From NCBI GenBank assembly GCA_913031135.1, contig CAJWEH010000006.1, positions 1 through 32,489 on the forward strand: 32,489 nucleotides of DNA, given 5' to 3'. The notes beneath the pieces were generated by a model. That model did no database searches. It worked only from the letters and a program-made list of their open reading frames with translations, and had not been told where the DNA came from. The stretch's first letter is position 1. Each line of letters begins with the position of its first letter. Origin of the DNA: an uncultured Puniceicoccaceae bacterium. Its GTDB lineage: Bacteria; Verrucomicrobiota; Verrucomicrobiia; Opitutales; Coraliomargaritaceae. Both the position numbers and the translations under genes were made by a program. Shown here in pieces: positions 5,705 through 8,958 of the stretch.

Positions 5705-7066
5705 ATGTCTGCTACAGATACCATTTTTGCACTTTCAAGTCCAGCAGGAGAATCCGCACTCGCTATCATTCGTTTGTCAGGACCCCTATGTCTCTCATTA
5801 CAGAGTGAGTTGTCGGGCCGAAATAAGCCATTAAAACAACGGCAGGCAACATTGTGCAAGTATATGTCAATCAATGGATTAGAGCTAGATTCTGGCATTT
5901 TTTTGTACTACCCCAATGGTGCATCGTTCACTGGAGAAGCCATGTTAGAATTCATGCCGCATGGAAATCCTCTGATCGTACAAAATATTATCGAAGATTT
6001 ATTACAGAGAGGACTCCGGTTGGCAGAACCTGGAGAATTTACTAAGAGGGCTTTTTTAAACGGAAAAATGGATTTGAGTCAGGCTGAAGCGGTTGCTGAT
6101 ATCATTCACGCTCGATCTAATTACAGCCTGGAAGTCGCTCGCAAGCAGTTAGCGGGTTCTATAGGCTTTAAAATGTCTGAATTAACGGATGCGCTTTTAG
6201 AGATTATCGCAGAAATAGAGGCTTATATTGACTTTCCAGAAGAAGATTTACCGATGCAAGATCCGAATGGTCCTGTAAAAAGAATACAGTATTTGATTAA
6301 TGAAATTAGCCGACTCATTGAGACGAATCAATACTCCGCCCTACTTCATGACGGAATCAAGACCTTAATTATTGGCGCTCCAAATGCAGGAAAAAGCAGC
6401 TTAATTAATTGTTTAGTGGGCTCTCAAAGAGCCATTGTTAGCGATATTCCAGGTACGACTAGAGATTTTATCTCTTCTTTTATTATGTTAGATTCCTTTC
6501 GCATTGAAATCATTGATACTGCTGGCTTGCACGCAACGACAGATCAACTGGAACAGCAAGGAATTGAGAAGACGCTCGAACAAGCGCACTCGGCAGACTT
6601 TTTTCTCCTAATTATGGATGCTACGCAACCACCACCCCAGATACCACCAGAAATCGCCTCTTTATTGACCGATGAGAATTGTATCGTCCTTGAAAATAAA
6701 ATAGACCTTGGAAATAGCAAAGACCAGAATGATTTTTTGAAAAAACTGCCCCACTCTAGAATTTCAATTACGGAAGGATTTGGAATTGATGCATTTAAGG
6801 AAGAATGGGTAAAAAGGATAGAAAAAACCATTTCATTGCCCAAATCAAGTGACGCTATTGTTCTGAATGCACGCCATACGCAGGCTATCAAGGCCTCTCA
6901 CAAAGCACTTTCCTCTGCCTTGCAAAAAGTTGATAGTCAAGACTTTAGCGAGTTAATATGCGTTGATCTTCGAGCTGCTGTTGATGGCTTTAGTGAGGTT
7001 GTTGGTAAAATTGATAATGAGGCTATGTTGGATAAGCTCTTTGCAAACTTTTGTATCGGAAAATGA
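5705..7066 (+). CDS. mnmE: tRNA modification GTPase MnmE (TrmE)
   Basis: With MnmG, MnmE installs the carboxymethylaminomethyl group at C5 of wobble U34. The 453 residues follow the family layout: an N-terminal tetrahydrofolate-binding domain (to about 118), a helical domain, an inserted K+-dependent G domain, and a C-terminal helix. The G domain shows G1 GAPNAGKSS near residue 224, G2 GTTRD, G3 DTAG and G4 ENKID. The C-terminus FCIGK carries the catalytic C-x-G-K motif. The stop TGA overlaps the mnmG start in an ATGA junction, so the two partner proteins are translationally coupled. Confidence 0.98.
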
Positions 7067-8958
7067 GTCATAAAGTCACATTTAATTTAAAGCAAGAATA
7101 TGATGTAATTGTTTGTGGTGCGGGTCATGCTGGCTGTGAAGCGGCACTAGCAGCGGCACGACGAGGCGCTAGTACCCTACTCTTAACAGGAAATTTAGAT
7201 ACGATAGCTCAAATGAGTTGCAATCCAGCTATTGGAGGCCAAGCAAAAGGCCATATGGTTCGTGAGATTGATGCTTTAGGTGGCGAAATGGCGATTAATA
7301 CGGACACCACAGCTATTCAGTTTCGTTTACTCAATGCCTCTAAAGGTCCAGCAGTTCAGGCTCCGCGCGCCCAATGTGATAAAAAAGCCTACCAATTTCG
7401 GATGAAACAAGCGATTGAATGGCAAGAGAATCTACTCCTTTTTCAAGCAATGGTTCAATCTTTGATCTATAAAGACGGTAAAGTCATTGGAGTTAGAACA
7501 AACTTGGATCTAGAATTTAAAGCAAAATCAGTCATAGTAACCACAGGAACCTTCTTGCGTGGTTTAATGCATGTCGGTCAAAATCAAAATGAAGGCGGCC
7601 GTATGGGTGATTTTACCGTCAAAGGGCTTTCTCAATCCTTTTTAGATGCAGGAATCGCCTTGGAACGCCTTAAAACAGGTACTCCTGCTCGAATTTTGGC
7701 AAAAACGATCGACTTTACACAATTAGAGGAACAAAAGGGCGACGAAGACCCCACATTCTTTGCTTTTTATGATACTAGAAGTTCAGAGGAACTGTTCCAC
7801 GTGGAACAAGCAGGTGAATCTCGATTAGGTTGGGAACCTGGATCTGAGCAAGTTTCTTGTTGGATGACCTATACTGGAGAGAAAACGCAACGGGTCATTA
7901 AGGATAATTTGCATTTGTCACCTATTTATTCAGGTGAAATCGTCGGCAGGGGTCCACGCTATTGTCCAAGTATTGAGGATAAAATAGTCCGTTTTTCAGA
8001 TAAAGACCGACATATGTTATTTTTGGAACCAGAAGGTCGCCATACGAATGAATGGTATATTAATGGGCTATCAACGAGCTTACCGTTTGAGGTTCAAGTA
8101 GAGATGTTGCGTAGTATCAAAGGCTTAGAGAATGTGCATATCCTTAGGCCAGCTTATGCAGTAGAGTATGATTTTGCTCCACCAACGCAGCTTTTTGCTT
8201 CTTTAGAATCCAAAAAAGTTGAGAATTTGTTTTTTGCTGGCCAAATCAACGGAACCTCGGGTTATGAAGAAGCAGCTGGGCAGGGCTTATTGGCTGGGGT
8301 TAATGCCGTACAGAAAATAAGGGGAGAGGAGCCCTTAATTTTAGGCAGAGACGAATGTTACATAGGAGTACTGGTCGATGACTTGGTCACAAAGGGGACA
8401 CAAGAGCCGTATCGAATGTTCTCAAGTCGTGCAGAGCATCGTTTATTGTTTAACCATACTAGTGCAGAATTAAGACTTTTAAAGTATGCGAAACAATATG
8501 AGCTTTTATCAAAATCGAGAATAAAGGCGATCGAAGAAAAGGATTCAGTGATTCGTCATTGGGTAGAGCGTTCTGAAAGTGAGGGGAGTGCGGGCACTAC
8601 TTATGCGGTACAGTTGAGGCGTAGTCGAAACGAAGCCGACTTGCCTAAAGCCTTGGAATCTCATTCAAAGGATCTAAAAAGAGAAGTTTTTTATCAAATT
8701 GCCTTTAAGGGTTATTTAGAAAGGGAGGCAAAGCAGGTAGAGAAATTGCGTCACATAGACAAGATAAAGGTTCCGCAATCCATTGATTATAAAGTAGTTA
8801 AGGGTTTGAGGGCGGAGAGTGCAGAAAAGTTAGAACAGATTCGACCAGTTACCTTAGGGCAAGCAAGTCGCATCAGTGGAGTCAATCCTGCAGACATTAG
8901 TATCTTGATGGTCTATATTGAGGCGAGCCTTAGAGAGAAAGCGAAAAAGTCACCGTGA
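7063..8958 (+). CDS. mnmG: tRNA uridine-5-carboxymethylaminomethyl(34) synthesis enzyme MnmG (GidA)
   Basis: MnmG is the FAD/NADH-dependent partner of MnmE in U34 modification. I choose the ATG at 7063, which overlaps the mnmE stop, over a TTG 12 bases earlier. It gives [19 protein letters not shown] and places the FAD dinucleotide motif [10 protein letters not shown] near residues 19-28. Other family blocks are [22 protein letters not shown], the FAD-domain segment [31 protein letters not shown] and the C-terminal GQASRISGV. At 631 residues it is full length. In a variable stretch between HHxxFF-like and CWMTYT blocks, codons 244-249 (LFHVEQ) carry a perfect parS-type palindrome, listed separately. 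It ends 4 bases from convergent manA. Confidence 0.98.
7793..7808. other. parS-type centromere site (ParB-binding palindrome) inside mnmG
   Basis: The sequence TGTTCCACGTGGAACA is a perfect 16-base palindrome. It equals the Pseudomonas-type parS site and differs from the B. subtilis consensus TGTTTCACGTGAAACA only at the paired positions 5 and 12. It lies wholly in the mnmG coding frame and reads through Leu-Phe-His-Val-Glu-Gln, in a segment where MnmG proteins differ in length and sequence. ParB proteins nucleate on such sites, spread with CTP, and recruit SMC/ParA for origin segregation. No parA or parB gene is in the window. Confidence 0.85.

Follow-up and report, generated by a model that had tools for sequence, protein, structure and literature searches.

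A probable chromosomal parS centromere inside the mnmG coding sequence of Verrucomicrobiota

The stretch of DNA analyzed here (the window, 32,489 nucleotides) carries the tRNA-modification gene mnmG together with mnmE, and a short palindrome lies within the mnmG reading frame. The relevant features are as follows:

5705..7066, + strand: mnmE, directly upstream of mnmG and overlapping it
7063..8958, + strand: mnmG (gidA), which carries the site; ATG at 7063 to stop at 8958; TIGR00136
7777..7857, + strand: variable MnmG loop holding the site, residues about 239-265
7793..7808, no strand assigned: putative parS site TGTTCCACGTGGAACA, in frame (C)TG TTC CAC GTG GAA CA(A) = L-F-H-V-E-Q, codons 244-249

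The host protein was assigned to MnmG by TIGR00136 (762 bits against a cut-off of 525), and the downstream neighbor of its gene is manA on the opposite strand. TGTTCCACGTGGAACA is a perfect 16-base palindrome, whose position and LFHVEQ reading in an earlier note on this DNA were reproduced here; the general in-frame reading of the 16-mer is NTG TTC CAC GTG GAA CAN, or x-F-H-V-E-[QH]. Compared to the parS consensus TGTTTCACGTGAAACA (PMC7383237; here and below, cited papers were drawn on in excerpts), it shows two symmetric differences. The identity to Pseudomonas-type parS that the earlier note had asserted is exact for P. aeruginosa parS2 and parS3, and parS1 and parS4 are one base off (PMC4368675).

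No second match to TGTTCCACGTGGAACA was present in the window even when three mismatches were allowed, and 100 shuffled windows gave a mean of 0.11 matches at this tolerance, with 8 shuffles containing at least one. In the draft genome (1,279,557 bases, 95 contigs, 97.6% complete), 7793-7808 was the sole site within two mismatches, so that scattered copies were not found, and the reversed-pattern control gave 0 matches. Chance occurrence was rejected on the basis of the shuffles and this uniqueness, in line with the earlier judgment that such a 16-mer is improbable by chance. The palindrome is probably the sole parS of this genome. When the protein is aligned with the solved MnmG chains 2zxh and 3cp2, most of FHVE lies opposite gaps, which bears out the view that the host stretch is variable in the MnmG family, and in an AlphaFold model of MnmG the site lies within a low-confidence stretch (mean pLDDT 72, from a shallow input of 18 rows).

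Among the 43 genomes of the family that were examined, 37 contained a match within two mismatches, located in mnmG in 36 of these and outside it in G013. Wherever mnmG extends to the position, the site was present (36/36 genomes). Of the seven genomes lacking a site in the gene, five gave no mnmG match and two a gene fragment ending before the position. Two-mismatch matches outside mnmG were disregarded because the reversed control also matches many family genomes at this tolerance (up to 5). For the exact IUPAC pattern, the reversed control matched 1/130 genomes of the order and 0/96 of the phylum.

Across the order (130 genomes, completeness ≥85%), the exact site was found in 95 genomes. With up to one mismatch, it occupied the mnmG loop of 92/102 ParB-positive versus 3/17 ParB-negative genomes (Fisher p = 1.7e-9, a value that ignores shared ancestry). 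In this comparison mnmG was located by protein search, the loop was readable in 119/130 genomes with the other 11 left out, the absence of ParB in G159 and G160 was inferred, and 12 genomes were scored positive from coordinates or earlier results. The ParB-positive exceptions without a site in mnmG (ten genomes) comprised six from family f23, two from f2, G110 and G044, in the last of which an exact site lies 20 kb away from mnmG. Conversely, three genomes with no strong ParB carried the site, exact in G050 and G159 and with one mismatch in G108. The sampled genomes of the small-genome families f6, f22 and f24 yielded no ParB match and no exact site, and wherever their loop was read the site was absent.

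Some individual genomes of the order merit description. Family f23 consists of small ParB-positive genomes such as G115 and G134, both of which carry exact sites on other contigs. G109, a single-contig 2.3-Mb genome rated 95% complete, gave no match to mnmG, parB or dnaA. At L174 (G072:C2:518950-520960), mnmG is split at the parS-bearing loop into ORFs of 250 and 391 aa, which is either a real fission or an assembly fault.

The survey was extended to 96 genomes of the phylum (completeness ≥92%), 83 of which lie outside the order. The exact site was present in 49/96 genomes overall and in 38/83 outside the order, and in 35 of these 38 it was located inside mnmG. In G180 the sites lie only just upstream of mnmG, and in G164 and G222 they lie on other contigs. 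By hand tally, an exact site anywhere in the genome was found outside the order in 38/49 genomes with a strong ParB (E below 1e-40) versus 0/34 others. Of the 11 genomes that have a strong ParB but no exact site, seven show a version with one or two mismatches in the mnmG loop; no site was found in the mnmG stretch examined of G205 and G235, and no mnmG match in G163 and G204. In 14 mnmG regions from families f31, f36, f41, f42 and f47, which have no strong ParB, nothing within three mismatches was detected to ~2 kb on either side. Both f28 genomes are without ParB and their loop words have decayed to GGTTTCACGTGAAGCA and AATTTCACGTGAGGCA, read as FHVKQ and FHVRQ. In 7/10 genomes of the f25 genus g69, the site lies near mnmG codon 548 and not in the loop. 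Use of the mnmG address is an ancient trait of the phylum rather than one peculiar to the window's own genome. As further observations, the f28 words stand as RFHVKQ in L292 (G193) and KFHVRQ in L293 (G211), relics of the site in 0.9-Mb genomes, and f25 loci such as L300 (G181) and L303 (G190) carry KKMFHVEHLDAIA near codon 548, a second address within mnmG.

The intragenic position of the site, and the extra copies that some genomes have just upstream of mnmG or 19-33 bases downstream, would also suit a ParB that mainly regulates mnmG (or mnmEG), with partition being secondary or served by other sites; ParB effects on expression near some parS sites are mentioned in a review (PMC7022226). We regard this as very unlikely. 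As no other site within two mismatches exists in the draft genome, partition would be left without a known site, and the placements near codon 548 in the seven f25 genomes and outside the gene in G180 would be intolerable for a regulator of fixed geometry. Furthermore, genes next to B. subtilis parS are described as unaffected by lack of Spo0J (PMC7022226).

The presence of parB in the organism, as anticipated in the earlier note, was established by a single ParB encoded on contig C40 (TIGR00180, E = 1e-51) and not on the window's contig. This protein passes the TIGR00180 cut-off (173 bits; cut-off 58) and falls below that of the Noc model TIGR04285 (243 bits; cut-off 315), and its solved-structure relatives are ParB, Spo0J and Noc chains. 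Its higher bit score with the Noc model and its best structural match, a Noc chain, raise the alternative that the 16-mer is a binding site for Noc, a nucleoid-occlusion relative of ParB, and not a partition site. However, the Noc binding site (NBS) is TATTTCCCGGGAAATA, which differs from the sequence found here, and the specificity residues of Noc are Q/K/K/R, with R173 and G201 absolutely conserved in ParB where Noc has Q and R (PMC7383237). The residues of the ParB studied here at 173/179/184/201 are R, A, G and G (hand count on the structural-chain alignment, Caulobacter numbering), giving it the parS-type pair R173/G201. At 172 and 204, DNA-contact positions common to ParB and Noc (PMC7383237), it has G and K (again by hand count) versus S and R. 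A ParB encoded beside ParA at L377 shows the same pattern (225 bits with the Noc model, 185 with TIGR00180), and a single site per genome would be ill-suited to nucleoid occlusion. A Noc site is accordingly a highly improbable reading of the 16-mer.

One strong ParA-type ATPase was found in the genome, on contig C16. The protein matches PF13614 (AAA_31, E = 3e-55), a family that is not restricted to ParA, is 262 aa long and by eye resembles Soj; its gene does not adjoin parB. This gene overlaps the start of a tyrosine-recombinase-like gene on the same strand (L445), the product of which is 307 aa long and XerC/D-like by eye.

Codon usage was examined in 69 mnmG genes picked by protein, each with exactly one FHVE in the loop, which avoids a circular choice by the DNA site; genes with a stop sign in the translation were excluded, including the window's own gene, whose end stop had been included. 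The four FHVE codons ranked as the top four of 257 conserved degenerate codon columns, with 97-100% of genes using one codon, followed by 74% for the next-ranked column and a median of 42%. As the pool of 69 genes had partly been fetched by the DNA pattern, the codon count was repeated on the protein-search loci alone. Here, FHVE was present in 85/107 distinct genes, and 100 of 108 FHVE copies read TTCCACGTGGAA, with the remaining eight carrying one transition; synonymous changes in relatives, which the earlier note had named as evidence against its reading, are thus rare. For the window's gene, the chance of obtaining its four FHVE codons from its own codon usage was 5e-4.

The reading frame of the site also varies. 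In loci of the family and order, every one of the 156 exact copies is read in the FHVE frame (at least one copy in 119/154 distinct genes, two or more in 37/154). Outside the order, this loop contains the identical 16-mer in FHVE, VPRGT or CSTWN reading, and L268 contains three copies in three frames within one mnmG, while L260 and L261 each contain two copies in two frames. Among 288 exact copies from distinct genes overall, 271 are in the FHVE frame, 10 in VPRGT and 7 in CSTWN, counted on ORFs extended to the previous stop, so that a few copies precede the likely start and not all are in the loop. The predominance of FHVE, including its exclusive use in the family and order, would be expected if FHVE[QH] were a functional MnmG motif and the palindrome a by-product of coding for it. 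As a general account this is already contradicted by the frame changes, since one 16-mer occurring in three frames is hard to reconcile with selection on the peptide as the overall cause. In addition, TTC CAC GTG GAA stays fixed, unlike the variable codons for F, H, V and E elsewhere, the segment sits mostly in gaps of the solved chains, and the ParB-less families f6, f22 and f24 are without the FHVE site where the loop was read, leaving a peptide motif a scarcely tenable explanation. The frame changes, the gaps and the in-frame tandem copies described below strengthen the earlier suggestion that the protein has been shaped to fit a DNA site.

Loop repeat units, mostly of 9-18 codons (27-54 bases), bring further copies of the 16-mer in relatives; in the family and order, multiple copies are mostly 48, 51 or 54 bases apart, and the repeats diverge outside the 16-mer. 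We considered whether the 51-base spacing reflects helical phase and dropped the idea, as spacings between exact copies less than 300 bases apart range from 33 to 128 bases and differ between families (non-exact pairs in f2: 27). That the extra copies of several families come with such units could point to a palindromic repeat or mobile sequence inserted and kept without function, by chance or hitch-hiking, but this is barely credible given the divergence of the units outside the 16-mer, the lack of dispersed copies in the window's own genome, the synonymous freezing, and a presence that follows ParB.

The window makes up an entire contig (G000:C6) of a draft, so nearness to the replication origin was assessed in relatives. 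Sampled GC skew switched from minus to plus at or near mnmG in 6/6 closed or near-closed genomes of the order: the switch brackets mnmG in G071 and G137, does so coarsely in G153 (noisy in the fine scan), and is roughly 20 to 100 kb distant from the gene in G019, G121 and G046. The leading strand is usually G-rich, and by this convention the switch near mnmG would mark the origin; a strand check left this polarity unconfirmed (44-65% of ORF bases leading; tRNAs 11 against 11). The distance from mnmG to parB amounted to 15-49% of the contig and that from mnmG to dnaA to 7-46% in seven genomes, of which G019 and G057 have a second contig, and the respective values were 18% and 46% (parB) and 6% and 29% (dnaA) for G069 and G146, based on rounded lengths. 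With distances ranging this widely, dnaA is near mnmG in some genomes. In the window's own genome, parB, the ParA-like gene and dnaA are all on other contigs than mnmG. The earlier proposal of an origin-proximal window is favored by the skew switch in six relatives, with polarity assumed, and weakened by the position of parB, and often dnaA, far from mnmG in closed relatives. In the closed genomes G137 and G071, dnaA and parB are close to the opposite skew switch, on the presumed terminus side.

The origins of 12 gut strains including Akkermansia muciniphila were placed with parS and skew, in agreement with read coverage, and dnaA was not always present there (PMC10197239). The origin of Methylacidiphilum infernorum was mapped 250 nt upstream of dnaA (PMC2474590), which speaks against a phylum-wide rule.

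Overall, we are highly confident that the 16-mer is the origin-proximal chromosomal parS centromere of a ParABS system, kept inside mnmG by selection on the DNA, with ParB as its predicted ligand. This reading is supported by the uniqueness of the site, the presence of ParB, codon freezing, the use of three frames across the phylum, the joint loss of site and ParB, and the skew switch nearby. Judging from sequence, ParB (C40) would load on the 16-mer as a CTP-dependent clamp and spread from there over the origin region, and ParA, for which the C16 gene is the candidate, would move ParB so that sister origins separate. The location of parS within mnmG coding letters would follow from mnmG staying at the replication origin in this lineage, possibly as a remnant of a classical origin neighborhood from which parAB and dnaA have moved away. 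Selection would keep the DNA word, and the MnmG loop would tolerate FHVE, VPRGT or CSTWN as well as tandem repeats.

A further-reaching interpretation, which we consider rather unlikely, is that mnmG is a long-standing Verrucomicrobiota centromere address that has outlasted the break-up of the origin operon, and that the embedding may itself matter. The parAB genes and dnaA would have moved, in some species to the terminus side, and parS would have stayed in mnmG, where it was repeatedly duplicated, relocated within the gene or put in another frame. Either transcription of mnmEG across the sole site at which ParB loads, or the presence of ParB clamps on mnmG, might then link tRNA modification or growth state to the segregation of origins.

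For the preferred reading of a parS kept inside mnmG by DNA selection, several known systems provide comparisons. In Bacillus subtilis, one parS site lies in spo0J. This resembles the present case in that parS overlaps a coding frame, the host there being parB itself; here, by contrast, much of a phylum uses a tRNA-modification gene as the host, and the site switches frames and occurs in coding repeats. The P. aeruginosa ParABS system (PMC4368675) shares the identical 16-mer and a ParB-family protein with the system described here, where the site is near the skew switch in closed relatives. It has ten putative parS sites, and according to the title of that paper a single one from the cluster nearest oriC is both required and sufficient for segregation, whereas mostly one locus is found here, inside mnmG and with parAB not adjacent. 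A. muciniphila YL44 is likewise a member of the Verrucomicrobiota with an origin mapped by parS, skew and read coverage; the excerpts of that paper make no mention of mnmG and report no known condensin for the species (PMC10197239).

GTDB species genomes were also scanned for parS followed by MnmG-like codons, yielding at least 119 stretches, of which 80 were examined. All 80 were in mnmG, largely by construction, as the pattern requires MnmG-like codons downstream. Most of those examined are labeled as Verrucomicrobiota lineages, including the isolates Cerasicoccus frondis and Pelagicoccus. By the labels as deposited, at least four are from Acidobacteria, Acidobacteriota or Vicinamibacterales, and at least one each from Acidobacteriaceae, Acidimicrobiia and Prevotellaceae. 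In the Acidobacteria-labeled L377 the order is mnmG (with parS), rsmG, a second parS, a ParA-family gene and parB, and in the Acidobacteriota-labeled L369 dnaA and mnmE precede the parS-bearing mnmG. L377 shows the downstream and L369 the upstream side of the classical operon mnmE-mnmG-rsmG-parA-parB with dnaA nearby, and the region of mnmG that carries parS, read as FHVE, is the same as here; in contrast, mnmG in the window is followed by manA on the other strand, and parB, the ParA-like gene and dnaA are elsewhere. By eye, the insertion point in Acidobacteriota appears to lie ~17 codons earlier; we therefore take it as an embedding of its own, likely of independent origin, in the same origin-linked gene.

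Among the matches listed in a search of mostly non-subscription literature, titles and abstract openings contained no report of parS in mnmG. On this basis, what appears to be new is how deep and strict the mnmG address is, that three frames are used, that repeats lie in coding sequence and that parAB is separate from the site. The site offers a natural case of one DNA stretch serving as both centromere and protein-coding sequence across much of a phylum, in which frame switches allow selection on DNA to be told apart from selection on protein. In draft genomes of this little-studied phylum, where dnaA and parB are poor guides, it can also serve to mark the origin, and it raises the question of why a centromere repeatedly picks mnmG, here as well as in some Acidobacteriota-labeled assemblies and one labeled Prevotellaceae.

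Several loci from the scan show additional arrangements. L354, labeled Akkermansia muciniphila, has the site at the mnmG loop in an Opitutales-like context with 65% identity to the window, and is perhaps mislabeled. In the Acidobacteria-labeled L377 and L366, the parS in the mnmG frame reads FHVEH and a second copy lies 664-666 bases past the mnmG open frame. The Prevotellaceae-labeled L373 carries three exact copies, at codons 257, 555 and 574 of the mnmG open frame, all read as VPRGT. At L320, L343, L355, L357, L359 and L374, a second exact parS follows 19-33 bases after the mnmG open frame.
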